Shown: positions 1 to 53,019 of the stretch, piece by piece
How the letters are laid out: every line of letters starts with the position of its first letter
Numbering within the stretch: position 1 is the stretch's first letter
Source of the DNA: Sabellastarte sp. h YS-2021
Lineage: Eukaryota > Annelida > Polychaeta > Sabellida > Sabellidae
Assembly (NCBI GenBank): GCA_964017235.1
Contig: OZ024936.1
Span: 9,586,496-9,650,495 of the forward strand
Length of the DNA stretch: 64,000 nucleotides
Reading direction: 5' to 3'
Made by a program: the position numbers and the translations under genes
The notes under the pieces: model-generated
What the model was told of the DNA's origin: nothing
Seen by the model: the letters and a program-made list of their open reading frames with translations, nothing else
Databases searched by the model: none

Positions 1-389
1 CACAGGGAATCTTTATGGCTATGAAAACCTGTCTGTGCAAAATTTTGGTCTCATTTTGAATAACAAAATGGCCGCCAGAGCTAATTGATTGAAAATAATA
101 AAGGTGCTCTAAATCTTGAAATATTCTAGCTAGCTTCATCAAATTTGCACAAAAGCTACATGACTAGAGAAGCTAGCCTAATAGTAATTTTGACCTAGTT
201 CTAAAAACAAATGGCCGCCATATCACATGTTTAATGTCAAATGGAGTTATCCTATTAAAAAGGCCTTATATCCCTTAATAAGCCATCAGAGAACATTCTA
301 AATGAACTATTAAATACAGCACAACATATATTATGCGAACTCTCAATTATACAGCATCAAATGCACTCTCCTTGGACCATTTAAACCTG

Positions 390-620
390 TTATTTTATCT
401 TTTTTTTCTATGCGACGCTTCCCTTATCTGAACTTATTGTTACTCCCCCAAGAGTACTTATTTGGGGTTTTACGTCACTTTCAACACTGTACAGTTCATC
501 AGGGTTCTGTACTGTAAACTGCCGACCAACGGCAAGCAACTACCAGCTTTCCCACTTGAGGCCGTGCCGGGAACCGAACCCCGGCCTCAGAGGTGGGAAG
601 CGAGAGTGTTACCAGCAGTA
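390..620 (-). mobile_element. tRNA-derived SINE embedded in every unit
   Basis: Read on the minus strand from about 620, 'ctggtaacactctcgcttcc' leads into 'ggccggggttcggttccc'. This resembles the 3' two thirds of a glycine tRNA: D-loop side, CTCGC..CCCAC anticodon arm and a GGTTCGNNTCC-type B box (plus-strand 570-580). The A box is degenerate. A body of about 200 bp follows, ending in an A-rich tail (plus-strand 'tatctttttttt', about 396-408). This layout is that of a Pol III SINE; V-SINE-type families such as RUDI are known in molluscs, but I could not assign the family. Other copies: 4770-5000, 9156-9386, 13536-13766, 17925-18155, 22314-22544, 26701-26931, 31084-31314, 35471-35701, 39858-40088, 44246-44476, 48628-48858. 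The constant position shows insertion before amplification. Ends are approximate. Confidence 0.65.
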
Positions 621-1143
621 AGACATTCTTGGAAATTATAAAAAATGGATAAGTGAAATATTAAGTATAATTGACAACAACATGTATACAGTTTGTGAAA
701 TTCTGTGTGGCCTGGGATTAAACAATTCAAAATTAACAGCAAAAACTCAATAAGGTAAGGACTGACGCAAGAGAAATAGTTTTTACAGAATATCTGCTAT
801 TAGTAAAGTCGAAATTTCAAGTATATGGTTACATTAAAAATAAAGGACTTCACGAAGAATTGCACAATATTATAAAATCAATATATATACACATATGTGA
901 TAATTACTAGCAAAATATGTATACACTATAACTATATCGTGTTGTTCATGATACTGTGATCACAAAAAAGAATACAAAAATGCACTGAGAATGAGTTAGG
1001 TGTCAATTAGTTTTGCTTATTTTTTCACATATACAATTATCAGAACACAACCATATTGAATGTCAAACTGTTGAAATGGGCTCTGGTTCAAACCTACATC
1101 TATGAAGATGAGAGACAAGCAGTTAAATACTGAACTGGCTAAC

Positions 1144-1160
1144 CACTTAGTCACTAAGTG
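1144..1160. repeat. Perfect 7-bp hairpin CACTTAG-tca-CTAAGTG
   Basis: A 7-bp perfect inverted repeat with a 3-base loop, present in every unit I checked at the same offset. No poly-T tract follows and no gene is adjacent, so it is recorded only as structure. Confidence 0.6.
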
Positions 1161-1856
1161 ATCTCATGATTGAGTAAGAGTAATCCTAGTATAAAATACA
1201 TAATAATAATAGACAGTTTTCTGTTTATTCAAAAGTGAGATAAGCAGTGAGCTTATATTACATAACCGCAATAGCTAATTCACCTGAGTGTTATCTCATC
1301 ACGTTAGCTCATTTTATTGATCTTTACTTATGTCAGCTAACATCTGAGGGTTTTTTTGCATTCACAGTTCCCAAAATATACCAGTGACTTACAACTGTAA
1401 ATTTTGGCTACATTTTAAACTGAAATGTTATCATTTAAAAGTATGTGTTATACCATCATCTTCAAAACAAAATACATCAGAAGGGTTGGATAATAGAAAG
1501 GCTAAACTGTCAGGCTTAAATGGAGTCGTGGGGATTTGAGGTCAGAAAATTAAAAATTCAAATAATAGAATGTCTGATGATGTTTTGTTAATCTGATCTA
1601 ACCATACGTCCATACTGCTTCATTTTTCTTACTTCATTAGTATGTTGGTAATTCTACACCTACAAAAAAGTGTCTTTGTTGTACTTTTAAAAACACCCCA
1701 ATAAAAACATAAGACTTCATTGAACTGACACAAGGTTAACCTTTGATACTTAAAAGTACACAAATGTCAAGTTATATAGAAGTAGAAGTTTCTAACATAA
1801 TTTAATCAGTGTAACATGATAAGTTTGTTTACAAAAAAGAAGCAGAAGCCCGTACT

Positions 1857-2101
1857 CAGGGGCGGATCCAGCCTTTAAGTAAGGTGGGGGTTCACATCAG
1901 ATTAAGGGGGGGTTCACGTCAGACATACCATAACTAAGGAGGGGGCATGCCCGCCCCCCCCCTTCCCCGGGAAAAAATTATTTTTTGGTTAAAATATAGC
2001 GCATTACCTGTAAATTTAATACCATTCTCAAGAAACAATTTTGTACTTTGCGTTGAACCCCTTAACATTATTTGAACCCCCCCCCCCCCGATCCGCTAGT
2101 G
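1857..2101. mobile_element. hAT-like MITE with 5-bp target site duplication, in every unit
   Basis: The left end reads CAGGGGCGGATCCAG. The right end reads GATCCGCTAGTG, whose reverse complement CACTAGCGGATC pairs imperfectly with the left end. The element is flanked on both sides by gtact (1852-1856 and 2102-2106), a 5-bp target duplication. It encodes no transposase and is about 245 bp, so it is non-autonomous. A CAGGGGCGG-type terminus fits hAT elements, and hAT groups with 5-bp duplications are known; the assignment is by terminus only. Internal G and C runs vary in length between copies and give much of the unit-length variation. Other copies: 6239-6487, 10623-10867, 15005-15254, 19394-19643, 23783-24031, 28170-28413, 32553-32801, 36940-37188, 41327-41575, 45715-45957, 50097-50339. 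All keep both gtact flanks, so insertion predates the array. Confidence 0.7.
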
Positions 2102-2399
2102 GTACTCCACAACAGGAGGAAATAGTTTTGAACGCCATGAGATACAGAAGTAGTGAAACAGTACAAAAATCGGGATATTTTTACAGCAAACATTTATCAG
2201 TTATGTAAAGGTACAAATAATGTGAGTTAAGAATATATTGTTTGAGACAGAAAATGCCTGTAAACTATGAAGCTGTGAAGTTTATTAACTGAAGTATAGG
2301 TACCAATGGAAATAGTACAATTAGGCAACAGTACATTGTGTTATAATAATCAGTTACAGGACCTTTTCATAAGAAAAATACGATTCAATTATGGCAGGT

Positions 2400-2830
2400 G
2401 AACACACTTTGGCAGAGCCAAGGTTAAAGGTCGCACTGGGACTTAGCACCTGCTCCCCCAAGCAATGAAACATCCATGAATCAAGTTTCTACACCTTTCT
2501 ACAACTTATCATTTACAGTTTCTGAGATATGCCCTAGAAAAGATTTTAAAGGTCAAGGTCACTCAAGGTTAAATCAAGTTCATCGCTCACCTTCTAACCA
2601 ATGTCTTCTAACAAAATCAACTCCCTTCAAGTTACAGTTTTCGAGATGTAGCCCAGACACAGTTTTCAAAGTCAAGGTCACTAGACAAAGGTCAAATCAA
2701 AGTCACACCATGATGTTTTACACCTACACCTCCCAACAAACGACCTTACCATGTTTCAACTTCCTACACCTTATGGTTTCTGAGATACAGCCTGGTGAAG
2801 CTCTTTCTTGTCATGCCCATGGGTGAAAAC
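2400..2830 (+). repeat. Three degenerate modules rich in AGGTCA half-sites, in every unit
   Basis: Three internal copies of a roughly 120-140 bp module can be aligned on 'tctgagatat' (2521), 'tcgagatgta' (2641) and 'tctgagatac' (2779), each preceded by cttc/acaactt and followed by remnants of a 'ggtcaaggtcac' block. The string TCAAGGTCA occurs at 2553-2561 and 2672-2680, and AGGTCA again at 2689-2694. A 116-codon frame starting at 2476 crosses all three modules. It recurs at 6862, 11242, 15629, 20018, 24406, 28788, 33176, 37563, 41950, 46332 and 50714; those coordinates locate the other copies. The frame is explained by near-identity of copies, not by selection. Confidence 0.75.
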
Positions 2831-2838
2831 AATAACTG

Positions 2839-2858
2839 CACAGCCCTTAAAGGCTGTG
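2839..2858. repeat. Perfect 7-bp hairpin CACAGCC-cttaaa-GGCTGTG
   Basis: Perfect 7-bp arms with a 6-base loop directly downstream of the AGGTCA modules, conserved at the same offset in the other units. It may mark one end of the interspersed module. No transcription signal accompanies it. Confidence 0.55.
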
Positions 2859-3361
2859 GGGTAAAAACACCCAGTTTCCAATGCTAAAAATGAGGCAAAA
2901 TTATTATTATTTAGTGTGTAATGTTTTACATAAAATAATATATATTCATTCCATAATTCTTTACAGTCACAGATCATCCGAAGTGACAGTTTGCTGTTGT
3001 TCTTGAATATTTCTTTTCTTGTTAAGGCTATTCAAGTAAAGTCTTTTTTTTTGTTTCCTATGTGGTTACATTGTAAATATATTTATGAACCAAAAATGTT
3101 CTCACAAGCTTTTAAGGATTAATAAGTCCAACAAATATATCTGTGCTACAGATGTTCTCTCAACTCAGTGTATCCCCCGACGGAACATGGTGTAACCTAA
3201 CATACAGGAAATTCAGCCATTCTAAAAATGAGTGTTGATGCACCCAATATTAAACAAGATTTGAGGTCAAACTTTTTCTCTGCCATGTGATGACCTGACC
3301 TTCTGCATATGCAAGTACCAAGTTAAAATATCAAGAAATACCTCAAATTTTAACTCTAAAA

Positions 3362-3387
3362 GGCCACTGGTCTTCTAGTGGAAGGCC
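3362..3387. repeat. Hairpin with ggccact / agtgg-aa-ggcc arms
   Basis: The arms CCACT and AGTGG enclose 'ggtcttct', and the stem is extended by GGCC on both sides with an AA bulge. A second small perfect stem, GGTTGC/GCAACC, lies at 3582-3600. Both recur in all units. They are listed because they break the otherwise featureless 2,860-4,250 stretch, which contains no defensible gene. Confidence 0.5.
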
Positions 3388-4251
3388 GGAACCATTAAGC
3401 AATAAGCTCTGTGGTCTTATCCATATATAACCACATATGAAATTTGTAAAGGTCTATATAAAATAACTAAGTTTATGTATATGAAAGGAAAATTTCTGCA
3501 TTTGCCGTGGGGCATGACCATACCCCAAAACAGTACGTCAGACTTTCATCTGGGGATACCATTGAAACTTAAGTTAAAATTGGTTGCATTGCTGGCAACC
3601 TTTCTATGGTCACAATTGCAATCTATAATTATCATTAAAAATGGACGAGAAATTCTGATTCATTTCATAGATTTTTGTAAAGATTATCAAGACACTGAAA
3701 TCATTTAAGACATTTTATGCATAGTAGGTGGAATTTTCTAGAACATATTTGACTTTCAACCTGTAAAATATACACATGAATATAAAATCCATATGATATG
3801 ATGTCTGATTTATATCATAGTAATGAAATATCACGAAATTGTCATATATGTGAATCAAATGTGAAAATGTATAAGAAAATTTGAATTGAAATCGAAATCA
3901 ACTTTTATAACACTTCAGCTTCATTTTAATGCATATTATTGAACTGGGAAGTTATTTTTTGCAAACATATGTCATATGACCAAGGACAGGTCCGATGTGA
4001 AGTCTTAAAACACACTCCAAAATTGTAAATACAGGACTTTATTAATCCCGGCAGCAATTTTGCAATTGAATGAGTGCAGTCTGAAACATAAAATGAGTTA
4101 TGTATATATGAACATTTATAATTTATTGGTCTTGTTTGATCTTGAGGGAGAGGCCAAAGTTCAACTCTGAAGAGATTCAACCTTCTAATTGTAAGAAACA
4201 GCCAGTAGAGAAGTACAGATAAATTTCAAAGGTATTGCTTCATTGACCATG

Positions 4252-4620
4252 TTTTTATCTCCCACCTGGGCCTTGGTTGGGAGATTATAAAACGCCTTCC
4301 GTAAGTGCCTCTGTCCGTTCATCACGTTTTTACATAAACCTTAATATATCATTCATTTATACAGATGTCTTCACCAAATTCACAGGGAATCTTTATGGCT
4401 ATAAAAACCTGTCTGTGCAAAATTTTGGTCTCATTTTGAATAACAAAATGGCCGCCAGAGCTAATTGATTGAAAATCATAAAGGTGCTCTAAATCTTGAA
4501 ATATTCTAGCTAGCTTCATCAAATTTGCACAAAAGCTACATGGCTAGAGAAGCTAGCCTAATAGTAATTTTGACCTAGTTCTAAAAACAAATGGCCGCCA
4601 TATCACATGTTTAATGTCAA
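4252..4620 (+). repeat. Interspersed bivalve-type module with 'tctcccacc' hairpin and ggccgcc blocks
   Basis: It begins with an imperfect inverted repeat, tttatctcccacc (4254-4266) against ggttgggagattataaa (4275-4291). It continues through 'gtccgttcatcacg', 'cttcaccaaattcacag' and two 'aatggccgcc' blocks (4447 and 4591 areas). Sequences of this make-up are frequent dispersed repeats in bivalve genomes, by my recollection of such genomes. Because the chosen unit start lies inside it, it spans each unit junction. A diverged relative sits outside the array at about 53,020-53,185, which supports it being a dispersed family rather than a part unique to the array. Confidence 0.6.
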
Positions 4621-7600
4621 ATGGAGTTATCCTATTAAAAAGGCCTTATATCCCTTAATAAGCCATCAGAGAACATTCTAAATGAACTATTAAATACAGC
4701 ACAACATATATTATGCGAACTCTCAATTATACAGCATCAAATGCACTCTCCTTGGACCATTTAAACCTGTTATTTTATCTTTTTTTTCTATGCGACGCTT
4801 CCCTTATCTGAACTTATTGTTACTCCCCCAAGAGTACTTATTTGGGGTTTTACGTCACTTTCAACACTGTACAGTTCATCAGGGTTCTGTACTGTAAACT
4901 GCCGACCAACGGCAAGCAACTACCAGCTTTCCCACTTGAGGCCGTGCCGGGAACCGAACCCCGGCCTCAGAGGTGGGAAGCGAGAGTGTTACCAGCAGTA
5001 AGACATTCTTGGAAATTATAAAAAATGGATAAGTGAAATATTAAGTATAATTGACAACAACATGTATACAGTTTGTGAAATTCTGTGTGGCCTGGGATTA
5101 AACAATTCAAAATTAACAGCAAAAACTCAATAAGGTAAGGACTGACGCAAGAGAAATAGTTTTTACAGAATATCTGCTATTAGTAAAGTCGAAATTTCAA
5201 GTATATGGTTACATTAAAAATAAAGGACTTCACGAAGAATTGCACAATATTATAAAATCAATATATATATACACATATGTGATAATTACTAGCAAAATAT
5301 GTATACACTATAACTATATCGTGTTGTTCATGATACTGTGATCACAAAAAAGAATACAAAAATGCACTGAGAATGAGTTAGGTGTCAATTAGTTTTGCTT
5401 ATTTTTTCACATATACAATTATCAGAACACAACCATATTGAATGTCAAACTGTTGAAATGGGCTCTGGTTCAAACCTACATCTATGAAGATGAGAGACAA
5501 GCAGTTAAATACTGAACTGGCTAACCACTTAGTCACTAAGTGATCTCATGATTGAGTAAGAGTAATCCTAGTATAAAATACATAATAATAATAGACAGTT
5601 TTCTGTTTATTCAAAAGTGAGATAAGCAGTGAGCTTATATTACATAACCGCAATAGCTAATTCACCTGAGTGTTATCTCATCACGTTAGCTCATTTTATT
5701 GATCTTTACTTATGTCAGCTAACATCTGAGGGTTTTTTTGCATTCACAGTTCCCAAAATATACCAGTGACTTACAACTGTAAATTTTGGCTACATTTTAA
5801 ACTGAAATGTTATCATTTAAAAGTATGTGTTATACCATCATCTTCAAAACAAAATACATCAGAAGGGTTGGATAATAGAAAGGCTAAACTGTCAGGCTTA
5901 AATGGAGTCGTGGGGATTTGAGGTCAGAAAATTAAAAATTCAAATAATAGAATGTCTGATGATGTTTTGTTAATCTGATCTAACCATACGTCCATACTGC
6001 TTCATTTTTCTTACTTCATTAGTATGTTGGTAATTCTACACCTACAAAAAAGTGTCTTTGTTGTACTTTTAAAAACACCCCAATAAAAACATAAGACTTC
6101 ATTGAACTGACACAAGGTTAACCTTTGATACTTAAAAGTACACAAATGTCAAGTTATATAGAAGTAGAAGTTTCTAACATAATTTAATCAGTGTAACATG
6201 ATAAGTTTGTTTACAAAAAAGTAGCAGAAGCCCGTACTCAGGGGCGGATCCAGCCTTTAAGTAAGGTGGGGGTTCACATCAGATTAAGGGGGGGTTCACG
6301 TCAGACATACCATAACTAAGGAGGGGGCATGCCCGCCCCCCCCCCCCCCCTTCCCCGGGAAAAAATTATTTTTTGGTTAAAATATAGCGCATTACCTGTA
6401 AATTTAATACCATTCTCAAGAAACAATTTTGTACTTTGCGTTGAACCCCTTAACATTATTTGAACCCCCCCCCCCGATCCGCTAGTGGTACTCCACAACA
6501 GGAGGAAATAGTTTTGAACGCCATGAGATACAGAAGTAGTGAAACAGTACAAAAATCGGGATATTTTTACAGCAAACATTTATCAGTTATGTAAAGGTAC
6601 AAATAATGTGAGTTAAGAATATATTGTTTGAGACAGAAAATGCCTGTAAACTATGAAGCTGTGAAGTTTATTAACTGAAGTATAAGTACCAATGGAAATA
6701 GTACAATTAGGCAACAGTACATTGTGTTATAATAATCAGTTACAGGACCTTTTCATAAGAAAAATACGATTCAATTATGGCAGGTGAACACACTTTGGCA
6801 GAGCCAAGGTTAAAGGTCGCACTGGGACTTAGCACCTGCTCCCCCAAGCAATGAAACATCCATGAATCAAGTTTCTACACCTTTCTACAACTTATCATTT
6901 ACAGTTTCTGAGATATGCCCTAGAAAAGATTTTAAAGGTCAAGGTCACTCAAGGTTAAATCAAGTTCATCGCTCACCTTCTAACCAATGTCTTCTAACAA
7001 AATCAACTCCCTTCAAGTTACAGTTTTCGAGATGTAGCCCAGACACAGTTTTCAAAGTCAAGGTCACTAGACAAAGGTCAAATCAAAGTCACACCATGAT
7101 GTTTTACACCTACACCTCCCAACAAACGACCTTACCATGTTTCAACTTCCTACACCTTATGGTTTCTGAGATACAGCCTGGTGAAGCTCTTTCTTGTCAT
7201 GCCCATGGGTGAAAACAATAACTGCACAGCCCTTAAAGGCTGTGGGGTAAAAACACCCAGTTTCCAATGCTAAAAATGAGGCAAAATTATTATTATTTAG
7301 TGTGTAATGTTTTACATAAAATAATATATATTCATTCCATAATTCTTTACAGTCACAGATCATCCGAAGTGACAGTTTGCTGTTGTTCTTGAATATTTCT
7401 TTTCTTGTTAAGGCTATTCAAGTAAAGTCTTTTTTTTTGTTTCCTATGTGGTTACATTGTAAATATATTTATGAACCAAAAATGTTCTCACAAGCTTTTA
7501 AGGATTAATAAGTCCAACAAATATATCTGTGCTACAGATGTTCTCTCAACTCAGTGTATCCCCCGACGGAACATGGTGTAACCTAACATACAGGAAATTC

Positions 7601-8766
7601 AGCCATTCTAAAAATGAGTGTTGATGCACCCAATATTAAACAAGATTTGAGGTCAAACTTTTTCTCTGCCATGTGATGACCTGACCTTCTGCATATGCAA
7701 GTACCAAGTTAAAATATCAAGAAATACCTCAAATTTTAACTCTAAAAGGCCACTGGTCTTCTAGTGGAAGGCCGGAACCATTAAGCAATAAGCTCTGTGG
7801 TCTTATCCATATATAACCACATATGAAATTTGTAAAGGTCTATATAAAATAACTAAGTTTATGTATATGAAAGGAAAATTTCTGCATTTGCCGTGGGGCA
7901 TGACCATACCCCAAAACAGTACGTCAGACTTTCATCTGGGGATACCATTGAAACTTAAGTTAAAATTGGTTGCATTGCTGGCAACCTTTCTATGGTCACA
8001 ATTGCAATCTATAATTATCATTAAAAATGGACGAGAAATTCTGATTCATTTCATAGATTTTTGTAAAGATTATCAAGACACTGAAATCATTTAAGACATT
8101 TTATGCATAGTAGGTGGAATTTTCTAGAACATATTTGACTTTCAACCTGTAAAATATACACATGAATATAAAATCCATATGATATGATGTCTGATTTATA
8201 TCATAGTAATGAAATATCACAAAATTGTCATATATGTGAATCAAATGTGAAAATGTATAAGAAAATTTGAATTGAAATCGAAATCAACTTTTATAACACT
8301 TCAGCTTCATTTTAATGCATATTATTGAACTGGGAAGTTATTTTTTGCAAACATATGTCATATGACCAAGGACAGGTCCGATGTGAAGTCTTAAAACACA
8401 CTCCAAAATTGTAAATACAGGACTTTATTAATCCCGGCAGCAATTTTGCAATTGAATGAGTGCAGTCTGAAACATGAAATGAGTTATGTATATATGAACA
8501 TTTATAATTTATTGGTCTTGTTTGATCTTGAGGGAGAGGCCAAAGTTCAACTCTGAAGAGATTCAACCTTCTAATTGTAAGAAACAGCCAGTAGAGAAGT
8601 ACAGATAAATTTCAAAGGTATTGCTTCATTGACCATGTTTTTATCTCCCACCTGGGCCTTGGTTGGGAGATTATAAAACGCCTTCCGTAAGTGCCTCTGT
8701 CCGTTCATCACGTTTTTACATAAACCTTAATATATCATTTATTTATACAGATGTCTTCACCAAATT
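4381..8766 (+). repeat. Macrosatellite unit 2 (4386 bp)
   Basis: Carries several private changes: 'ataaaaacct' near 4400, loss of a GGTACC site ('tataagtacc', about 6681), 'cacaaaattg' near 8219, 'catgaaatgag' near 8474 and 'catttattta' near 8738. It has 'gtagcag' and the longer TA tract like units 4-12. Its MITE copy is 249 bp because of longer G and C runs. Confidence 0.95.
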
Positions 8767-11700
8767 CACAGGGAATCTTTATGGCTATGAAAACCTGTCT
8801 GTGCAAAATTTTGGTCTCATTTTGAATAACAAAATGGCCGCCAGAGCTAATTGATTGAAAATAATAAAGGTGCTCTAAATCTTGAAATATTCTAGCTAGC
8901 TTCATCAAATTTGCACAAAAGCTACATGACTAGAGAAGCTAGCCTAATAGTAATTTTGACCTAGTTCTAAAAACAAATGGCCGCCATATCACATGTTTAA
9001 TGTCAAATGGAGTTATCCTATTAAAAAGGCCTTATATCCCTTAATAAGCCATCAGAGAACATTCTAAATGAACTATTAAATACAGCACAACATATATTAT
9101 GCGAACTCTCAATTATACAGCATCAAATGCACTCTCCTTGGACCATTTAAACCTGTTATTTTATCTTTTTTTTCTATGCGACGCTTCCCTTATCTGAACT
9201 TATTGTTACTCCCCCAAGAGTACTTATTTGGGGTTTTACGTCACTTTCAACACTGTACAGTTCATCAGGGTTCTGTACTGTAAACTGCCGACCAACGGCA
9301 AGCAACTACCAGCTTTCCCACTTGAGGCCGTGCCGGGAACCGAACCCCGGCCTCAGAGGTGGGAAGCGAGAGTGTTACCAGCAGTAAGACATTCTTGGAA
9401 ATTATAAAAAATGGATAAGTGAAATATTAAGTATAATTGACAACAACATGTATACAGTTTGTGAAATTCTGTGTGGCCTGGGATTAAACAATTCAAAATT
9501 AACAGCAAAAACTCAATAAGGTAAGGACTGACGCAAGAGAAATAGTTTTTACAGAATATCTGCTATTAGTAAAGTCGAAATTTCAAGTATATGGTTACAT
9601 TAAAAATAAAGGACTTCACGAAGAATTGCACAATATTATAAAATCAATATATATACACATATGTGATAATTACTAGCAAAATATGTATACACTATAACTA
9701 TATCGTGTTGTTCATGATACTGTGATCACAAAAAAGAATACAAAAATGCACTGAGAATGAGTTAGGTGTCAATTAGTTTTGCTTATTTTTTCACATATAC
9801 AATTATCAGAACACAACCATATTGAATGTCAAACTGTTGAAATGGGCTCTGGTTCAAACCTACATCTATGAAGATGAGAGACAAGCAGTTAAATACTGAA
9901 CTGGCTAACCACTTAGTCACTAAGTGATCTCATGATTGAGTAAGAGTAATCCTAGTATAAAATACATAATAATAATAGACAGTTTTCTGTTTATTCAAAA
10001 GTGAGATAAGCAGTGAGCTTATATTACATAACCGCAATAGCTAATTCACCTGAGTGTTATCTCATCACGTTAGCTCATTTTATTGATCTTTACTTATGTC
10101 AGCTAACATCTGAGGGTTTTTTTGCATTCACAGTTCCCAAAATATACCAGTGACTTACAACTGTAAATTTTGGCTACATTTTAAACTGAAATGTTATCAT
10201 TTAAAAGTATGTGTTATACCATCATCTTCAAAACAAAATACATCAGAAGGGTTGGATAATAGAAAGGCTAAACTGTCAGGCTTAAATGGAGTCGTGGGGA
10301 TTTGAGGTCAGAAAATTAAAAATTCAAATAATAGAATGTCTGATGATGTTTTGTTAATCTGATCTAACCATACGTCCATACTGCTTCATTTTTCTTACTT
10401 CATTAGTATGTTGGTAATTCTACACCTACAAAAAAGTGTCTTTGTTGTACTTTTAAAAACACCCCAATAAAAACATAAGACTTCATTGAACTGACACAAG
10501 GTTAACCTTTGATACTTAAAAGTACACAAATGTCAAGTTATATAGAAGTAGAAGTTTCTAACATAATTTAATCAGTGTAACATGATAAGTTTGTTTACAA
10601 AAAAGAAGCAGAAGCCCGTACTCAGGGGCGGATCCAGCCTTTAAGTAAGGTGGGGGTTCACATCAGATTAAGGGGGGGTTCACGTCAGACATACCATAAC
10701 TAAGGAGGGGGCATGCCCGCCCCCCCCCTTCCCCGGGAAAAAATTATTTTTTGGTTAAAATATAGCGCATTACCTGTAAATTTAATACCATTCTCAAGAA
10801 ACAATTTTGTACTTTGCGTTGAACCCCTTAACATTATTTGAACCCCCCCCCCCCCGATCCGCTAGTGGTACTCCACAACAGGAGGAAATAGTTTTGAACG
10901 CCATGAGATACAGAAGTAGTGAAACAGTACAAAAATCGGGATATTTTTACAGCAAACATTTATCAGTTATGTAAAGGTACAAATAATGTGAGTTAAGAAT
11001 ATATTGTTTGAGACAGAAAATGCCTGTAAACTATGAAGCTGTGAAGTTTATTAACTGAAGTATAGGTACCAATGGAAATAGTACAATTAGGCAACAGTAC
11101 ATTGTGTTATAATAATCAGTTACAGGACCTTTTCATAAGAAAAATACGATTCAATTATGGCAGGTGAACACACTTTGGCAGAGCCAAGGTTAAAGGTCGC
11201 ACTGGGACTTAGCACCTGCTCCCCCAAGCAATGAAACATCCATGAATCAAGTTTCTACACCTTTCTACAACTTATCATTTACAGTTTCTGAGATATGCCC
11301 TAGAAAAGATTTTAAAGGTCAAGGTCACTCAAGGTTAAATCAAGTTCATCGCTCACCTTCTAACCAATGTCTTCTAACAAAATCAACTCCCTTCAAGTTA
11401 CAGTTTTCGAGATGTAGCCCAGACACAGTTTTCAAAGTCAAGGTCACTAGACAAAGGTCAAATCAAAGTCACACCATGATGTTTTACACCTACACCTCCC
11501 AACAAACGACCTTACCATGTTTCAACTTCCTACACCTTATGGTTTCTGAGATACAGCCTGGTGAAGCTCTTTCTTGTCATGCCCATGGGTGAAAACAATA
11601 ACTGCACAGCCCTTAAAGGCTGTGGGGTAAAAACACCCAGTTTCCAATGCTAAAAATGAGGCAAAATTATTATTATTTAGTGTGTAATGTTTTACATAAA

Positions 11701-39468: not shown

Positions 39469-42400
39469 CACAGGGAATCTTTATGGCTATGAAAACCTGT
39501 CTGTGCAAAATTTTGGTCTCATTTTGAATAACAAAATGGCCGCCAGAGCTAATTGATTGAAAATCATAAAGGTGCTCTAAATCTTGAAATATTCTAGCTA
39601 GCTTCATCAAATTTGCACAAAAGCTACATGGCTAGAGAAGCTAGCCTAATAGTAATTTTGACCTAGTTCTAAAAACAAATGGCCGCCATATCACATGTTT
39701 AATGTCAAATGGAGTTATCCTATTAAAAAGGCCTTATATCCCTTAATAAGCCATCAGAGAACATTCTAAATGAACTATTAAATACAGCACAACATATATT
39801 ATGCGAACTCTCAATTATACAGCATCAAATGCACTCTCCTTGGACCATTTAAACCTGTTATTTTATCTTTTTTTTCTATGCGACGCTTCCCTTATCTGAA
39901 CTTATTGTTACTCCCCCAAGAGTACTTATTTGGGGTTTTACGTCACTTTCAACACTGTACAGTTCGTCAGGGTTCTGTACTGTAAACTGCCGACCAACGG
40001 CAAGCAACTACCAGCTTTCCCACTTGAGGCCGTGCCGGGAACCGAACCCCGGCCTCAGAGGTGGGAAGCGAGAGTGTTACCAGCAGTAAGACATTCTTGG
40101 AAATTATAAAAAATGGATAAGTGAAATATTAAGTATAATTGACAACAACATGTATACAGTTTGTGAAATTCTGTGTGGCCTGGGATTAAACAATTCAAAA
40201 TTAACAGCAAAAACTCAATAAGGTAAGGACTGACGCAAGAGAAATAGTTTTTACAGAATATCTGCTATTAGTAAAGTCGAAATTTCAAGTATATGGTTAC
40301 ATTAAAAATAAAGGACTTCACGAAGAATTGCACAATATTATAAAATCAATATATATATACACATATGTGATAATTACTAGCAAAATATGTATACACTATA
40401 ACTATATCGTGTTGTTCATGATACTGTGATCACAAAAAAGAATACAAAAATGCACTGAGAATGAGTTAGGTGTCAATTAGTTTTGCTTATTTTTTCACAT
40501 ATACAATTATCAGAACACAACCATATTGAATGTCAAACTGTTGAAATGGGCTCTGGTTCAAACCTACATCTATGAAGATGAGAGACAAGCAGTTAAATAC
40601 TGAACTGGCTAACCACTTAGTCACTAAGTGATCTCATGATTGAGTAAGAGTAATCCTAGTATAAAATACATAATAATAATAGACAGTTTTCTGTTTATTC
40701 AAAAGTGAGATAAGCAGTGAGCTTATATTACATAACCGCAATAGCTAATTCACCTGAGTGTTATCTCATCACGTTAGCTCATTTTATTGATCTTTACTTA
40801 TGTCAGCTAACATCTGAGGGTTTTTTTGCATTCACAGTTCCCAAAATATATCAGTGACTTACAACTGTAAGTTTTGGCTACATTTTAAACTGAAATGTTA
40901 TCATTTAAAAGTATGTGTTATACCATCATCTTCAAAACAAAATACATCAGAAGGGTTGGATAATAGAAAGGCTAAACTGTCAGGCTTAAATGGAGTCATG
41001 GGGATTTGAGGTCAGAAAATTAAAAATTCAAATAATAGAATGTCTGATGATGTTTTGTTAATCTGATCTAACCATACGTCCATACTGCTTCATTTTTCTT
41101 ACTTCATTAGTATGTTGGTAATTCTACACCTACAAAAAAGTGTCTTTGTTGTACTTTTAAAAACACCCCAATAAAAACATAAGACTTCATTGAACTGACA
41201 CAAGGTTAACCTTTGATACTTAAAAGTACACAAATGTCAAGTTATATAGAAGTAGAAGTTTCTAACATAATTTAATCAGTGTAACATGATAAGTTTGTTT
41301 ACAAAAAAGTAGCAGAAGCCCGTACTCAGGGGCGGATCCAGCCTTTAAGTAAGGTGGGGGTTCACATCAGATTAAGGGGGGGGTTCACGTCAGACATACC
41401 ATAACTAAGGAGGGGGCATGCCCGCCCCCCCCCCCCCCCCTTCCCCGGGAAAAAATTATTTTTTGGTTAAAATATAGCGCATTACCTGTAAATTTAACAC
41501 CATTCTCAAGAAACAATTTTGTACTTTGCGTTGAACCCCTTAACATTATTTGAACCCCCCCCCGATCCACTAGTGGTACTCCACAACAGGAGGAAATAGT
41601 TTTGAACGCCATGAGATACAGAAGTAGTGAAACAGTACAAAAATCGGGATATTTTTACAGCAAACATTTATCAGTTATGTAAAGGTACAAATAATGTGAG
41701 TTAAGAATATATTGTTTGAGACAGAAAATGCCTGTAAACTATGAAGCTGTGAAGTTTATTAACTGAAGTATAGGTACCAATGGAAATAGTACAATTAGGC
41801 AACAGTACATTGTGTTATAATAATCAGTTACAGGACCTTTTCATAAGAAAAATACGATTCAATTATGGCAGGTGAACACACTTTGGCAGAGCCAAGGTTA
41901 AAGGTCGCACTGGGACTTAGCACCTGCTCCCCCAAGCAATGAAACATCCATGAATCAAGTTTCTACACCTTTCTACAACTTATCATTTACAGTTTCTGAG
42001 ATATGCCCTAGAAAAGATTTTAAAGGTCAAGGTCACTCAAGGTTAAATCAAGTTCATCGCTCACCTTCTAACCAATGTCTTCTAACAAAATCAACTCCCT
42101 TCAAGTTACAGTTTTCGAGATGTAGCCCAGACACAGTTTTCAAAGTCAAGGTCACTAGACAAAGGTCAAATCAAAGTCACACCATGATGTTTTACACCTA
42201 CACCTCCCAACAAACGACCTTACCATGTTTCAACTTCCTACACCTTATGGTTTCTGAGATACAGCCTGGTGAAGCTCTTTCTTGTCATGCCCATGGGTGA
42301 AAACAATAACTGCACAGCCCTTAAAGGCTGTGGGGTAAAAACACCCAGTTTCCAATGCTAAAAATGAGGCAAAATTATTATTATTTAGTGTGTAATGTTT

Positions 42401-43856
42401 TACATAAAATAATATATATTCATTCCATAATTCTTTACAGTCACAGATCATCCGAAGTGACAGTTTGCTGTTGTTCTTGAATATTTCTTTTCTTGTCAAG
42501 GCTATTCAAGTAAAGTCTTTTTTTTTTTGTTTCCTATGTGGTTACATTGTAAATATATTTATGAACCAAAAATGTTCTCACAAGCTTTTAAGGATTAATA
42601 AGTCCAACAAATATATCTGTGCTACAGATGTTCTCTCAACTCAGTGTATCCCCCGACGGAACATGGTGTAACCTAACATACAGGAAATTCAGCCATTCTA
42701 AAAATGAGTGTTGATGCACCCAATATTAAACAAGATTTGAGGTCAAACTTTTTCTCTGCCATGTGATGACCTGACCTTCTGCATATGCAAGTACCAAGTT
42801 AAAATATCAAGAAATACCTCAAATTTTAACTCTAAAAGGCCACTGGTCTTCTAGTGGAAGGCCGGAACCATTAAGCAATAAGCTCTGTGGTCTTATCCAT
42901 ATATAACCACATATGAAATTTGTAAAGGTCTATATAAAATAACTAAGTTTATGTATATGAAAGGAAAATTTCTGCATTTGCCGTGGGGCATGACCATACC
43001 CCAAAACAGTACGTCAGACTTTCATCTGGGGATACCATTGAAACTTAAGTTAAAATTGGTTGCATTGCTGGCAACCTTTCTATGGTCACAATTGCAATCT
43101 ATAATTATCATTAAAAATGGACGAGAAATTCTGATTCATTTCATAGATTTTTGTAAAGATTATCAAGACACTGAAATCATTTAAGACATTTTATGCATAG
43201 TAGGTGGAATTTTCTAGAACATATTTGACTTTCAACCTGTAAAATATACACATGAATATAAAATCCATATGATATGATGTCTGATTTATATCATAGTAAT
43301 GAAATATCACGAAATTGTCATATATGTGAATCAAATGTGAAAATGTATAAGGAAATTTGAATTGAAATCGAAATCAACTTTTATAACACTTCAGCTTCAT
43401 TTTAATGCATATTATTGAACTGGGAAGTTATTTTTTGCAAACATATGTCATATGACCAAGGACAGGTCCGATGTGAAGTCTTAAAACACACTCCAAAATT
43501 GTAAATACAGGACTTTATTAATCCCGGCAGCAATTTTGCAATTGAATGAGTGCAGTCTGAAACATAAAATGAGTTATGTATATATGAACATTTATAATTT
43601 ATTGGTCTTGTTTGATCTTGAGGGAGAGGCCAAAGTTCAACTCTGAAGAGATTCAACCTTCTAATTGTAAGAAACAGCCAGTAGAGAAGTACAGATAAAT
43701 TTCAAAGGTATTGCTTCATTGACCATGTTTTTATCTCCCACCTGGGCCTTGGTTGGGAGATTATAAAACGCCTTCCGTAAGTGCCTCTGTCCGTTCATCA
43801 CGTTTTTACATAAACCTTAATATATCATTCATTTATACAGATGTCTTCACCAAATT
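39469..43856 (+). repeat. Macrosatellite unit 10 (4388 bp)
   Basis: Private changes: 'cttgtcaagg' near 42494 and 'ataaggaaat' near 43348. The first removes a stop codon on the minus strand, and so lengthens a meaningless frame there from 68 to 84 codons. That is what drift in non-coding DNA would give. Confidence 0.95.
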
Positions 43857-46800
43857 CACAGGGAATCTTTATGGCTATGAAAACCTGTCTGTGCAAAATT
43901 TTGGTCTCATTTTGAATAACAAAATGGCCGCCAGAGCTAATTGATTGAAAATCATAAAGGTGCTCTAAATCTTGAAATATTCTAGCTAGCTTCATCAAAT
44001 TTGCACAAAAGCTACATGGCTAGAGAAGCTAGCCTAATAGTAATTTTGACCTAGTTCTAAAAACAAATGGCCGCCATATCACATGTTTAATGTCAAATGG
44101 AGTTATCCTATTAAAAAGGCCTTATATCCCTTAATAAGCCATCAGAGAACATTCTAAATGAACTATTAAATACAGCACAACATATATTATGCGAACTCTC
44201 AATTATACAGCATCAAATGCACTCTCCTTGGACCATTTAAACCTGTTATTTTATCTTTTTTTTCTATGCGACGCTTCCCTTATCTGAACTTATTGTTACT
44301 CCCCCAAGAGTACTTATTTGGGGTTTTACGTCACTTTCAACACTGTACAGTTCGTCAGGGTTCTGTACTGTAAACTGCCGACCAACGGCAAGCAACTACC
44401 AGCTTTCCCACTTGAGGCCGTGCCGGGAACCGAACCCCGGCCTCAGAGGTGGGAAGCGAGAGTGTTACCAGCAGTAAGACATTCTTGGAAATTATAAAAA
44501 ATGGATAAGTGAAATATTAAGTATAATTGACAACAACATGTATACAGTTTGTGAAATTCTGTGTGGCCTGGGATTAAACAATTCAAAATTAACAGCAAAA
44601 ACTCAATAAGGTAAGGACTGACGCAAGAGAAATAGTTTTTACAGAATATCTGCTATTAGTAAAGTCGAAATTTCAAGTATATGGTTACATTAAAAATAAA
44701 GGACTTCACGAAGAATTGCACAATATTATAAAATCAATATATATATACACATATGTGATAATTACTAGCAAAATATGTATACACTATAACTATATCGTGT
44801 TGTTCATGATACTGTGATCACAAAAAAGAATACAAAAATGCACTGAGAATGAGTTAGGTGTCAATTAGTTTTGCTTATTTTTTCACATATACAATTATCA
44901 GAACACAACCATATTGAATGTCAAACTGTTGAAATGGGCTCTGGTTCAAACCTACATCTATGAAGATGAGAGACAAGCAGTTAAATACTGAACTGGCTAA
45001 CCACTTAGTCACTAAGTGATCTCATGATTGAGTAAGAGTAATCCTAGTATAAAATACATAATAATAATAGACAGTTTTCTGTTTATTCAAAAGTGAGATA
45101 AGCAGTGAGCTTATATTACATAACCGCAATAGCTAATTCACCTGAGTGTTATCTCATCACGTTAGCTCATTTTATTGATCTTTACTTATGTCAGCTAACA
45201 TCTGAGGGTTTTTTTGCATTCACAGTTCCCAAAATATATCAGTGACTTACAACTGTAAGTTTTGGCTACATTTTAAACTGAAATGTTATCATTTAAAAGT
45301 ATGTGTTATACCATCATCTTCAAAACAAAATACATCAGAAGGGTTGGATAATAGAAAGGCTAAACTGTCAGGCTTAAATGGAGTCATGGGGATTTGAGGT
45401 CAGAAAATTAAAAATTCAAATAATAGAATGTCTGATGATGTTTTGTTAATCTGATCTAACCATACGTCCATACTGCTTCATTTTTCTTACTTCATTAGTA
45501 TGTTGGTAATTCTACACCTACAAAAAAGTGTCTTTGTTGTACTTTTAAAAACACCCCAATAAAAACATAAGACTTCATTGAACTGACACAAGGTTAACCT
45601 TTGATACTTAAAAGTACACAAATGTCAAGTTATATAGAAGTAGAAGTTTCTAACATAATTTAATCAGTGTAACATGATAAGTTTGTTTACAAAAAAGTAG
45701 CAGAAGCCCGTACTCAGGGGCGGATCCAGCCTTTAAGTAAGGTGGGGGTTCACATCAGATTAAGGGGGGGGTTCACGTCAGACATACCATAACTAAGGAG
45801 GGGGCATGCCCGCCCCCCCCCCTTCCCCGGGAAAAAATTATTTTTTGGTTAAAATATAGCGCATTACCTGTAAATTTAACACCATTCTCAAGAAACAATT
45901 TTGTACTTTGCGTTGAACCCCTTAACATTATTTGAACCCCCCCCCGATCCACTAGTGGTACTCCACAACAGGAGGAAATAGTTTTGAACGCCATGAGATA
46001 CAGAAGTAGTGAAACAGTACAAAAATCGGGATATTTTTACAGCAAACATTTATCAGTTATGTAAAGGTACAAATAATGTGAGTTAAGAATATATTGTTTG
46101 AGACAGAAAATGCCTGTAAACTATGAAGCTGTGAAGTTTATTAACTGAAGTATAGGTACCAATGGAAATAGTACAATTAGGCAACAGTACATTGTGTTAT
46201 AATAATCAGTTACAGGACCTTTTCATAAGAAAAATACGATTCAATTATGGCAGGTGAACACACTTTGGCAGAGCCAAGGTTAAAGGTCGCACTGGGACTT
46301 AGCACCTGCTCCCCCAAGCAATGAAACATCCATGAATCAAGTTTCTACACCTTTCTACAACTTATCATTTACAGTTTCTGAGATATGCCCTAGAAAAGAT
46401 TTTAAAGGTCAAGGTCACTCAAGGTTAAATCAAGTTCATCGCTCACCTTCTAACCAATGTCTTCTAACAAAATCAACTCCCTTCAAGTTACAGTTTTCGA
46501 GATGTAGCCCAGACACAGTTTTCAAAGTCAAGGTCACTAGACAAAGGTCAAATCAAAGTCACACCATGATGTTTTACACCTACACCTCCCAACAAACGAC
46601 CTTACCATGTTTCAACTTCCTACACCTTATGGTTTCTGAGATACAGCCTGGTGAAGCTCTTTCTTGTCATGCCCATGGGTGAAAACAATAACTGCACAGC
46701 CCTTAAAGGCTGTGGGGTAAAAACACCCAGTTTCCAATGCTAAAAATGAGGCAAAATTATTATTATTTAGTGTGTAATGTTTTACATAAAATAATATATA

Positions 46801-48238
46801 TTCATTCCATAATTCTTTACAGTCACAGATCATCCGAAGTGACAGTTTGCTGTTGTTCTTGAATATTTCTTTTCTTGTTAAGGCTATTCAAGTAAAGTCT
46901 TTTTTTTTTTGTTTCCTATGTGGTTACATTGTAAATATATTTATGAACCAAAAATGTTCTCACAAGCTTTTAAGGATTAATAAGTCCAACAAATATATCT
47001 GTGCTACAGATGTTCTCTCAACTCAGTGTATCCCCCGACGGAACATGGTGTAACCTAACATACAGGAAATTCAGCCATTCTAAAAATGAGTGTTGATGCA
47101 CCCAATATTAAACAAGATTTGAGGTCAAACTTTTTCTCTGCCATGTGATGACCTGACCTTCTGCATATGCAAGTACCAAGTTAAAATATCAAGAAATACC
47201 TCAAATTTTAACTCTAAAAGGCCACTGGTCTTCTAGTGGAAGGCCGGAACCATTAAGCAATAAGCTCTGTGGTCTTATCCATATATAACCACATATGAAA
47301 TTTGTAAAGGTCTATATAAAATAACTAAGTTTATGTATATGAAAGGAAAATTTCTGCATTTGCCGTGGGGCATGACCATACCCCAAAACAGTACGTCAGA
47401 CTTTCATCTGGGGATACCATTGAAACTTAAGTTAAAATTGGTTGCATTGCTGGCAACCTTTCTATGGTCACAATTGCAATCTATAATTATCATTAAAAAT
47501 GGACGAGAAATTCTGATTCATTTCATAGATTTTTGTAAAGATTATCAAGACACTGAAATCATTTAAGACATTTTATGCATAGTAGGTGGAATTTTCTAGA
47601 ACATATTTGACTTTCAACCTGTAAAATATACACATGAATATAAAATCCATATGATATGATGTCTGATTTATATCATAGTAATGAAATATCACGAAATTGT
47701 CATATATGTGAATCAAATGTGAAAATGTATAAGAAAATTTGAATTGAAATCGAAATCAACTTTTATAACACTTCAGCTTCATTTTAATGCATATTATTGA
47801 ACTGGGAAGTTATTTTTTGCAAACATATGTCATATGACCAAGGACAGGTCCGATGTGAAGTCTTAAAACACACTCCAAAATTGTAAATACAGGACTTTAT
47901 TAATCCCGGCAGCAATTTTGCAATTGAATGAGTGCAGTCTGAAACATAAAATGAGTTATGTATATATGAACATTTATAATTTATTGGTCTTGTTTGATCT
48001 TGAGGGAGAGGCCAAAGTTCAACTCTGAAGAGATTCAACCTTCTAATTGTAAGAAACAGCCAGTAGAGAAGTACAGATAAATTTCAAAGGTATTGCTTCA
48101 TTGACCATGTTTTTATCTCCCACCTGGGCCTTGGTTGGGAGATTATAAAACGCCTTCCGTAAGTGCCTCTGTCCGTTCATCACGTTTTTACATAAACCTT
48201 AATATATCATTCATTTATACAGATGTCTTCACCAAATT
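43857..48238 (+). repeat. Macrosatellite unit 11 (4382 bp)
   Basis: MITE copy is 243 bp, the shortest class and shared with unit 12, due to a short C run near 45813. I noticed no private substitution. Confidence 0.95.
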
Positions 48239-51200
48239 CACAGGGAATCTTTATGGCTATGAAAACCTGTCTGTGCAAAATTTTGGTCTCATTTTGAATA
48301 ACAAAATGACCGCCAGAGCTAATTGATTGAAAATCATAAAGGTGCTCTAAATCTTGAAATATTCTAGCTAGCTTCATCAAATTTGCACAAAAGCTACATG
48401 GCTAGAGAAGCTAGCCTAATAGTAATTTTGACCTAGTTCTAAAAACAAATGGCCGCCATATCACATGTTTAATGTCAAATGGAGTTATCCTATTAAAAAG
48501 GCCTTATATCCCTTAATAAGCCATCAGAGAACATTCTAAATGAACTATTAAATACAGCACAACATATATTATGCGAACTCTCAATTATACAGCATCAAAT
48601 GCACTCTCCTTGGACCATTTAAACCTGTTATTTTATCTTTTTTTTCTATGCGACGCTTCCCTTATCTGAACTTATTGTTACTCCCCCAAGAGTACTTATT
48701 TGGGGTTTTACGTCACTTTCAACACTGTACAGTTCGTCAGGGTTCTGTACTGTAAACTGCCGACCAACGGCAAGCAACTACCAGCTTTCCCACTTGAGGC
48801 CGTGCCGGGAACCGAACCCCGGCCTCAGAGGTGGGAAGCGAGAGTGTTACCAGCAGTAAGACATTCTTGGAAATTATAAAAAATGGATAAGTGAAATATT
48901 AAGTATAATTGACAACAACATGTATACAGTTTGTGAAATTCTGTGTGGCCTGGGATTAAACAATTCAAAATTAACAGCAAAAACTCAATAAGGTAAGGAC
49001 TGACGCAAGAGAAATAGTTTTTACAGAATATCTGCTATTAGTAAAGTCGAAATTTCAAGTATATGGTTACATTAAAAATAAAGGACTTCACGAAGAATTG
49101 CACAATATTATAAAATCAATATATATATACACATATGTGATAATTACTAGCAAAATATGTATACACTATAACTATATCGTGTTGTTCATGATACTGTGAT
49201 CACAAAAAAGAATACAAAAATGCACTGAGAATGAGTTAGGTGTCAATTAGTTTTGCTTATTTTTTCACATATACAATTATCAGAACACAACCATATTGAA
49301 TGTCAAACTGTTGAAATGGGCTCTGGTTCAAACCTACATCTATGAAGATGAGAGACAAGCAGTTAAATACTGAACTGGCTAACCACTTAGTCACTAAGTG
49401 ATCTCATGATTGAGTAAGAGTAATCCTAGTATAAAATACATAATAATAATAGACAGTTTTCTGTTTATTCAAAAGTGAGATAAGCAGTGAGCTTATATTA
49501 CATAACCGCAATAGCTAATTCACCTGAGTGTTATCTCATCACGTTAGCTCATTTTATTGATCTTTACTTATGTCAGCTAACATCTGAGGGTTTTTTTGCA
49601 TTCACAGTTCCCAAAATATATCAGTGACTTACAACTGTAAGTTTTGGCTACATTTTAAACTGAAATGTTATCATTTAAAAGTATGTGTTATACCATCATC
49701 TTCAAAACAAAATACATCAGAAGGGTTGGATAATAGAAAGGCTAAACTGTCAGGCTTAAATGGAGTCATGGGGATTTGAGGTCAGAAAATTAAAAATTCA
49801 AATAATAGAATGTCTGATGATGTTTTGTTAATCTGATCTAACCATACGTCCATACTGCTTCATTTTTCTTACTTCATTAGTATGTTGGTAATTCTACACC
49901 TACAAAAAAGTGTCTTTGTTGTACTTTTAAAAACACCCCAATAAAAACATAAGACTTCATTGAACTGACACAAGGTTAACCTTTGATACTTAAAAGTACA
50001 CAAATGTCAAGTTATATAGAAGTAGAAGTTTCTAACATAATTTAATCAGTGTAACATGATAAGTTTGTTTACAAAAAAGTAGCAGAAGCCCGTACTCAGG
50101 GGCGGATCCAGCCTTTAAGTAAGGTGGGGGTTCACATCAGATTAAGGGGGGGGTTCACGTCAGACATACCATAACTAAGGAGGGGGCATGCCCGCCCCCC
50201 CCCCTTCCCCGGGAAAAAATTATTTTTTGGTTAAAATATAGCGCATTACCTGTAAATTTAACACCATTCTCAAGAAACAATTTTGTACTTTGCGTTGAAC
50301 CCCTTAACATTATTTGAACCCCCCCCCGATCCACTAGTGGTACTCCACAACAGGAGGAAATAGTTTTGAACGCCATGAGATACAGAAGTAGTGAAACAGT
50401 ACAAAAATCGGGATATTTTTACAGCAAACATTTATCAGTTATGTAAAGGTACAAATAATGTGAGTTAAGAATATATTGTTTGAGACAGAAAATGCCTGTA
50501 AACTATGAAGCTGTGAAGTTTATTAACTGAAGTATAGGTACCAATGGAAATAGTACAATTAGGCAACAGTACATTGTGTTATAATAATCAGTTACAGGAC
50601 CTTTTCATAAGAAAAATACGATTCAATTATGGCAGGTGAACACACTTTGGCAGAGCCAAGGTTAAAGGTCGCACTGGGACTTAGCACCTGCTCCCCCAAG
50701 CAATGAAACATCCATGAATCAAGTTTCTACACCTTTCTACAACTTATCATTTACAGTTTCTGAGATATGCCCTAGAAAAGATTTTAAAGGTCAAGGTCAC
50801 TCAAGGTTAAATCAAGTTCATCGCTCACCTTCTAACCAATGTCTTCTAACAAAATCAACTCCCTTCAAGTTACAGTTTTCGAGATGTAGCCCAGACACAG
50901 TTTTCAAAGTCAAGGTCACTAGACAAAGGTCAAATCAAAGTCACACCATGATGTTTTACACCTACACCTCCCAACAAACGACCTTACCATGTTTCAACTT
51001 CCTACACCTTATGGTTTCTGAGATACAGCCTGGTGAAGCTCTTTCTTGTCATGCCCATGGGTGAAAACAATAACTGCACAGCCCTTAAAGGCTGTGGGGT
51101 AAAAACACCCAGTTTCCAATGCTAAAAATGAGGCAAAATTATTATTATTTAGTGTGTAATGTTTTACATAAAATAATATATATTCATTCCATAATTCTTT

Positions 51201-52618
51201 ACAGTCACAGATCATCCGAAGTGACAGTTTGCTGTTGTTCTTGAATATTTCTTTTCTTGTTAAGGCTATTCAAGTAAAGTCTTTTTTTTTGTTTCCTATG
51301 TGGTCACATTGTAAATATATTTATGAACCAAAAATGTTCTCACAAGCTTTTAAGGATTAATAAGTCCAACAAATATATCTGTGCTACAGATGTTCTCTCA
51401 ACTCAGTGTATCCCCCGACGGAACATGGTGTAACCTAACATACAGGAAATTCAGCCATTCTAAAAATGAGTGTTGATGCACCCAATATTAAACAAGATTT
51501 GAGGTCAAACTTTTTCTCTGCCATGTGATGACCTGACCTTCTGCATATGCAAGTACCAAGTTAAAATATCAAGAAATACCTCAAATTTTAACTCTAAAAG
51601 GCCACTGGTCTTCTAGTGGAAGGCCGGAACCATTAAGCAATAAGCTCTGTGGTCTTATCCATATATAACCACATATGAAATTTGTAAAGGTCTATATAAA
51701 ATAACTAAGTTTATGTATATGAAAGGAAAATTTCTGCATTTGCCGTGGGGCATGACCATACCCCAAAACAGTACGTCAGACTTTCATCTGGGGATACCAT
51801 TGAAACTTAAGTTAAAATTGGTTGCATTGCTGGCAACCTTTCTATGGTCACAATTGCAATCTATAATTATCATTAAAAATGGACGAGAAATTCTGATTCA
51901 TTTCATAGATTTTTGTAAAGATTATCAAGACACTGAAATCATTTAAGACATTTTATGCATAGTAGGTGGAATTTTCTAGAACATATTTGACTTTCAACCT
52001 GTAAAATATACACATGAATATAAAATCCATATGATATGATGTCTGATTTATATCATAGTAATGAAATATCACGAAATTGTCATATATGTGAATCAAATGT
52101 GAAAATGTATAAGAAAATTTGAATTGAAATCGAAATCAACTTTTATAACACTTCAGCTTCATTTTAATGCATATTATTGAACTGGGAAGTTATTTTTTGC
52201 AAACATATGTCATATGACCAAGGACAGGTCCGATGTGAAGTCTTAAAACACACTCCAAAATTGTAAATACAGGACTTTATTAATCCCGGCAGCAATTTTG
52301 CAATTGAATGAGTGCAGTCTGAAACATAAAATGAGTTATGTATATATGAACATTTATAATTTATTGGTCTTGTTTGATCTTGAGGGAGAGGCCAAAGTTC
52401 AACTCTGAAGAGATTCAACCTTCTAATTGTAAGAAACAGCCAGTAGAGAAGTACAGATAAATTTCAAAGGTATTGCTTCATTGACCATGTTTTTATCTCC
52501 CACCTGGGCCTTGGTTGGGAGATTATAAAACGCCTTCCGTAAGTGCCTCTGTCCGTTCATCACGTTTTTACATAAACCTTAATATATCATTCATTTATAC
52601 AGATGTCTTCACCAAATT
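48239..52618 (+). repeat. Macrosatellite unit 12, last complete copy (4380 bp)
   Basis: Private changes: 'aaaatgaccgcc' near 48305, which breaks the otherwise constant ggccgcc block, and 'gtggtcacatt' near 51301. MITE length is 243 bp as in unit 11. Its end leads directly into the partial terminal copy. Confidence 0.95.
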
Positions 52619-52893
52619 CACAGGGAATCTTTATGGCTATGAAAACCTGTCTGTGCAAAATTTTGGCCTCATTTTGAATAACAAAATGGCCGCCAGAGCT
52701 AATTGATTGAAAATCATAAAGGTGCTCTAAATCTTGAAATATTCTAGCTAGCTTCATCAAATTTGCACAAAAGCTACATGGCTAGAGAAGCTAGCCTAAT
52801 AGTAATTTTGACCTAGTTCTAAAAACAAATGGCCGCCATATCACATAATGTCAAATGGAGTTATCCTATTAAAAAGGCCTTATATCCCTTAAT
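52619..52893 (+). repeat. Partial terminal unit and right array boundary
   Basis: The unit consensus continues for 275 bases, with 'ttttggcctc' in place of 'ttttggtctc'. There is a 6-base difference: 'cacataatg' where other units have 'cacatgtttaatg'. Identity stops after 'cccttaata': other units go on 'agccatcaga', here the sequence reads 'tggctcctag'. The edge copy is more changed than interior copies, as expected when end units escape homogenisation. Confidence 0.9.
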
Positions 52894-53019
52894 ATGGCTC
52901 CTAGAGGTTTACAATGTGAAAACAACTTGTAGGATGTCATGGCCTGGGAATCTTTTCAAGGTGTTGAACTTGACCTTTGTCTTCTGGTTCAAGGTTAAAT
53001 ATGGTCATCACACTAAAAT
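52894..53019. other. Flank immediately after the array
   Basis: No unit sequence and no gene were recognised. It contains 'gttgaacttgacctttg' and 'ggttcaaggttaaatatgg', which resemble the AGGTCA-type blocks of bivalve dispersed repeats, so this is probably the natural continuation of the module in which the array ends. Confidence 0.4.

Follow-up and report, generated by a model that had tools for sequence, protein, structure and literature searches.

Extent and layout of the array

We analyzed a 64,000-nucleotide stretch of the genome of the sabellid polychaete Sabellastarte sp. h YS-2021 (NCBI GenBank assembly GCA_964017235.1, contig OZ024936.1, forward-strand positions 9,586,496 to 9,650,495; hereafter the window, C14:9586496-9650495), of which bases 1 to 52893 or 52894 form a head-to-tail array of 4.38-kb units, with the commonest 20-mer spacings at 4380-4389 bp. 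The genome comprises 1.786 Gb in 647 contigs, 14 of which (31-194 Mb each) hold 1,738 of the 1,786 Mb; 21 of the 647 contigs were looked at, and sequence was read beyond the window for 160 kb leftward and 40 kb rightward. The array extends left past the window to a full length of 23 units (u01 to u23; C14:9538218-9639389, approximately 101.2 kb), about half of it visible within the window, and N is absent throughout the 264 kb read around it. Both edges share the same unit phase, giving a whole number of units. Within the window, a 280-bp tail of u11 is followed by 12 whole units (u12-u23) of 4375-4389 bp.

1..52894, plus strand: in-window part of the 23-unit array (u11 tail and u12-u23), from 20-mer spacings, unit alignments and unit starts
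281, 4661, 9047, 13427, 17816, 22205, plus strand: starts of units u12 to u17
26592, 30975, 35362, 39749, 44137, 48519, plus strand: starts of units u18 to u23
281..4660, plus strand: first whole unit in the window, u12 of 23, from the list of unit starts and lengths
48519..52894, plus strand: last unit, u23, joined to the right flank, with a private 4-bp deletion and the base of dispersed relatives at one private site
52894..52895, no strand: right breakpoint of the duplicated segment, from edge and junction sequences with a 1-bp overlap (A)

A private 4-bp deletion, together with one base at the junction, brings the last unit to 4375 bp, and the last base of the array is ambiguous by one because of the 1-bp overlap at the junction. 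Outside the window, a 299-bp insertion lengthens u04 to 4684 bp. The array is real: u23 aligns to earlier units at 99.4-99.8%, and an exact 35-base pattern for the unit junction has 22 matches in the genome, all in the array, against none for a reversed control pattern. A genome query with the whole unit was swamped by an abundant dispersed repeat (34 of 18716 first-look candidates were scored), and three pieces of the unit were used instead; each found 23 near-identical copies, every one in the array. These genome searches score the best candidates only, and counts of abundant repeats are lower bounds. As all 22 exact junctions lie at a single locus, the array is confined to it and is not a chromosome-wide satellite family. 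Older relatives of parts of the unit show 74% identity over about 300 bases and less, or 76% over about 220 bases, and shorter stretches reach 87%. The first-pass annotation had described a highly homogeneous, multi-kilobase tandem array spanning 52.9 kb of the window, which the spacings and unit alignments bear out. Its count of twelve full units stands; the search for unit copies elsewhere in the assembly that it had proposed returned no dispersed single copies of the unit.

Breakpoints and divergence between units

The two edges of the array differ in what lies beyond them. No other match in the genome search was found for the 501 bases left of the array. At the right edge, a dispersed repeat runs from inside u23 into the flank in 8/8 relatives, reaching 291 flank bases in four of them and approximately 190 in the other four; where one unit meets the next, the best matches to all 8 relatives stop at the junction or at most 8 bases short of it. 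When left-edge, junction and right-edge sequences are compared, they overlap by 1 bp (A). Unit ends thus do not coincide with element ends and the unit is not transposon-bounded, since the left flank is unmatched and the dispersed repeat that contains the right end runs on into the flank. This breakpoint anatomy suggests that a segment already containing a short interspersed nuclear element (SINE)-like sequence and a miniature inverted-repeat transposable element (MITE) was duplicated in place. Judged from the sequence, the simplest history would be a tandem duplication in place, involving neither the insertion of a foreign block nor a transposon unit.

Alignment of the 23 units gave 51 substitution columns, 28 of them single-unit and 23 shared, with a mean pairwise difference of 9.1 substitutions (0.21%); mean differences are 0.13% within u02-u14 and 0.065% within u16-u23. 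The first unit stands apart: of the 28 single-unit substitutions, 12 belong to it, and none of these lies beyond its first 1946 bp. By chance, 12/12 would fall there with a probability of 6e-5, which rises to 0.0015 when five clustered changes are treated as one. Over its first ~1.95 kb, u01 differs from the other units by 0.92%, versus 0.11% over the remainder; among themselves, the other units differ by 0.22% in the left part and 0.15% in the right part. Five of the 12 u01 sites are comparable with five diverged relatives, and the u01 base occurs in none of the relatives at three of these sites, in one of five at another, and ambiguously at the last. Because its bases are mostly absent from the relatives, u01 appears mostly to have gained changes, not to have kept old ones. 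At the other end of the array, u23 carries the base of 7/8 dispersed relatives at one private site, and its 4-bp deletion is new, the missing bases being present in 8/8 relatives.

Two-unit blocks repeat twice, as u11-u12/u13-u14 and u17-u18/u19-u20: u11 and u13, like u17 and u19, differ by no substitutions, u12 and u14 by 2, and u18 and u20 by 1. Neighbouring units, by contrast, differ by 8 (u11/u12) and 3 (u17/u18). Unit u08 has two variants in common with u09 on its left side and two with u07 on its right side, and the minimum number of recombination intervals is five, or three without the MITE sites. Across the array, inter-unit distance grows with spacing (r 0.51; 0/20000 permutations). 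Taken together, the edge divergence, the two block duplications and the at least three recombination intervals favour unequal exchange that probably continues.

Several points weigh against this reading. The rise of distance with spacing stems from two blocks: within u02-u14 the correlation is 0.05 (6756/20000 permutations reach it), and within u16-u23 it is 0.37 (1122/20000 permutations), neither being a significant rise. There is little sign of greater age at the right edge than in the core, the left and right halves of u23 differing from the other units by 0.23% and 0.18%. Moreover, the 0.92% of u01 includes clustered changes that may be one event, and the analysis rests on one assembly.

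A separate observation concerns u15 (window position 13427), which shares with u01 (C14:9538219) two variants absent from the other 21 units and sits, relic-like, between the two homogeneous blocks.

One unit carries a later insertion.

C14:9555121-9555417 (L012:8626-8922): TTAA-flanked element in u04, from the unit alignment

This 295-bp element lies between two copies of TTAA in u04 only, and the empty site with one TTAA is found in 22/23 units. Occurring in 1 of 23 units, the insertion postdates the origin of u04 and is later than the expansion, and not every transposon in the array is frozen. Its other copies in the genome (40 matches listed) are 95-100% alike, which suggests that the element probably moved recently; from its TTAA sites and its ends we take it to be piggyBac-like.

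Unit content and genomic neighbourhood

Each unit holds the same interspersed-transposon pattern, made up of a SINE-like element, a MITE and part of a dispersed repeat, for which u23 provides the coordinates.

48693..48852, minus strand: SINE-like dispersed element, present in the units, from genome matches
50097..50339, no strand: 243-bp MITE with imperfect inverted ends and GTACT on both sides, from its printed ends
52487..53185, plus strand: dispersed repeat spanning the right array edge, with 8/8 relatives aligning across the edge

The SINE-like element has matches on many chromosomes, the best at 88-98%; we take it to be a SINE on the minus strand on the basis of A- and B-box motifs, not of a library. 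The MITE, presumably hAT-like, is carried by 23/23 units, its exact left mark lying at unit position 1571-1573 where unchanged, and 17 listed dispersed matches start no more than 4 bases from its left end. The constant positions previously proposed for the two elements are upheld. The right end of the unit is a piece of the very abundant dispersed repeat. At approximately 700 bp (window 52487-53185), this repeat also occurs as side-by-side copies in several of the 8 loci read.

Searches of the window with Rfam at gathering scores and with ARAGORN found no RNA family and no tRNA, and Pfam returned nothing above cut-off for 10 window open reading frames (ORFs; 8 in the right flank and 2 in the unit). 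The longest stop-to-stop frame of the unit is 132 amino acids. No gene was found in the unit by these searches, which spliced or short genes may escape. Among ten long flank ORFs, six match a Pfam family at E 0.01 or better and four match none; five of the six have either a transposon-type family above cut-off or a below-cut-off tyrosine-recombinase match, and the sixth a hAT dimerisation region. At L020:5039-9586, three long minus-strand ORFs lie side by side; one of them matches a reverse transcriptase and another has a tyrosine-recombinase match below cut-off, an anatomy that we take to be that of a DIRS-like retroelement. CpG in the unit is at 0.39 of expectation, yet 16 of the 51 variable columns have CpG in one state, a pattern which perhaps reflects germline methylation of the array.

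The array lies 72 kb outside a zone of about 1 Mb that is rich in two other satellites. The first, with a 381-bp unit, extends from C14:9420496 (the left limit read) to approximately 9466310, over more than 45 kb, with 122/122 matches on one strand. Of 26 places sampled across its rightmost 38 kb, 19 have a best higher-order match of at least 99%, with a period mostly of 3024 bp and in some places of 2623-2643 bp. This satellite was found in 7/20 short probes (reversed at 8.45 Mb, forward at 9.10-9.37 Mb) and in 2/10 further probes (9.39 and 9.41 Mb). Its exact pattern counts 1064 forward and 205 reverse matches, those listed lying on C6, C11 and C14, with reversed copies at C14:8.415-8.447 Mb. 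Between 8.70 and 9.05 Mb of C14, 7/8 probes resemble one another at 97-100%, and the 4 kb at C14:8720001-8724000 consist of a 681-bp tandem repeat (5.9 copies, 99%). An exact 35-base pattern of this repeat has 3661 + 5869 = 9530 genome matches on the two strands, and the matches listed lie around the midpoint of C2, at 103.9-104.05 of its 190 Mb. The 681-bp repeat is thus a candidate centromeric satellite; C14 8.4-9.5 Mb is probably the centromere region of this chromosome, and the array would then be pericentromeric.

Origin and maintenance of the array

We consider it likely that the array is a pericentromeric megasatellite that was born in place and has been expanded and homogenised by unequal exchange. 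A 4.38-kb segment of ordinary DNA already containing the SINE-like element, the MITE and part of the dispersed repeat would have been tandemly duplicated by a nearly homology-free join; this step is proposed from the observed breakpoint anatomy, with end joining or a replication template switch as the possible route. Growth to 23 units could then have proceeded by out-of-register exchange, some of it shifted by two units (8.8 kb), to which the observed block duplications and recombinant units point. Crossing over is the route that we suppose here, although these features and the edge effect would fit break-induced replication equally. In theory, tandem arrays stay alike in the middle and drift at their edges. 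Repeated exchange would keep the core alike while the flank-anchored part of the first unit drifts, as the observed edge divergence suggests, and such exchange may continue today. Most likely the array does nothing for the animal and is a passenger in a satellite-rich pericentromere, and its unit number should vary between individuals.

The first-pass annotation had left open whether near-identity reflects recent amplification or ongoing homogenisation, through unequal exchange or the reinsertion of extrachromosomal circles. Excision of a unit, its rolling-circle amplification and the reinsertion of the product as a block would yield a whole number of very similar units with the same phase at both edges, and homology-driven reinsertion at the same locus would look nearly like unequal exchange. 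We nevertheless regard this route as improbable. The right flank continues the dispersed repeat begun inside the unit, which, coincidence aside, excludes a block from elsewhere; all exact junctions lie at one locus, and the sequence domains and two-unit blocks suggest stepwise events. Exchange is therefore favoured and circles are unneeded. A single recent burst by replication slippage or break-induced replication, with no continuing exchange, accounts for the low divergence (0.065-0.21%) and for the absence of a spacing gradient in the u02-u14 block. It sits poorly with u01, whose left part differs from the other units about four times as much as those units differ among themselves, with no such excess in its right part, and two different block duplications together with recombinant units require several events. 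We hold such a burst to be no more probable than circles, and of the two alternatives in the annotation the edge data favour ongoing homogenisation, not recent amplification.

A function, as a chromatin boundary like DXZ4 or D4Z4, a centromere-supporting array or an RNA source, seems still less probable to us. Its scale resembles that given for DXZ4 (3 kb units) and D4Z4 (3.3 kb, 8 to >100 units), and satellite blocks lie nearby. The unit offers no Rfam family, tRNA, frame longer than 132 amino acids or Pfam match above cut-off in its two ORFs, however, and the best match to a 12-base CTCF core has 2 mismatches per strand (in one unit, without a chance control); shared and single-unit changes are also spread over much of the unit. 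Least probable of all, in our judgement, is an assembly artefact that inflated the unit number or misplaced units. Units alike in every substitution, such as u11/u13 and u17/u19, are hard for assemblers, but substitutions or tract lengths distinguish most units, no N interrupts the joins to the two flanks, the insertion in u04 is unique, and there are no copies on other contigs.

These results also narrow the idea of a macrosatellite built from frozen transposons. The SINE-like element and the MITE are indeed held in the units, whereas the u04 insertion postdates the expansion, and "built from" fails in the sense of transposon-defined units, as neither unit end was seen to be an element end. 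The array is instead a clear example of an already known kind, with unusually clear anatomy. Human megasatellites, as described by Warburton et al. (2008; PMC2588610), have units of several kb with interspersed transposons (e.g. a 54.5-kb array of 5.4-kb units), are gene-free, and are presumed by those authors to expand by unequal crossing over. The present array resembles that description in exceeding 10 kb and in its multi-kb units, fixed transposon pattern and lack of a detected gene; it differs in its animal host and in that a single assembled array reveals the two breakpoints, the flanks and the divergence at the edge. DXZ4 and D4Z4 are likewise reported as single-locus-style arrays of 3-4 kb units, but they have chromatin roles that have been described or a gene (DUX4), and nothing of the kind was seen here. 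Oyster satellite monomers are reported to reach 3287 bp (PMC8268682) and 8637 bp (PMC11136912), many of them transposon-similar, which weakens the earlier remark that units this long would be unusual for bivalves; those kilobase satellites are also tandem with long monomers, while the unit here is not seen to be element-bounded and is found at one locus. The word "macrosatellite" needs care, since a crayfish paper (PMC13130569) applies it to any unit over 100 bp. No published report of this array was found in open papers, a weak negative.

A bolder reading, which we offer only tentatively, is that we see a satellite at the moment of its birth on the edge of a centromere: ordinary pericentromeric DNA would have been duplicated once in place and now be present in 23 copies. 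It is similarly doubtful, but possible, that two-unit higher-order blocks and an aged edge are already forming beside mature satellites. Within one gap-free assembled stretch, the two breakpoints and the flanks that are likely ancestral can be read along with block duplications, recombinant units and a later transposon insertion, and an array so close to probable centromeric satellites could provide a small test case for satellite birth and homogenisation. If a satellite is indeed being born here, the conversion of pericentromeric DNA into a satellite would be readable step by step at a single locus.

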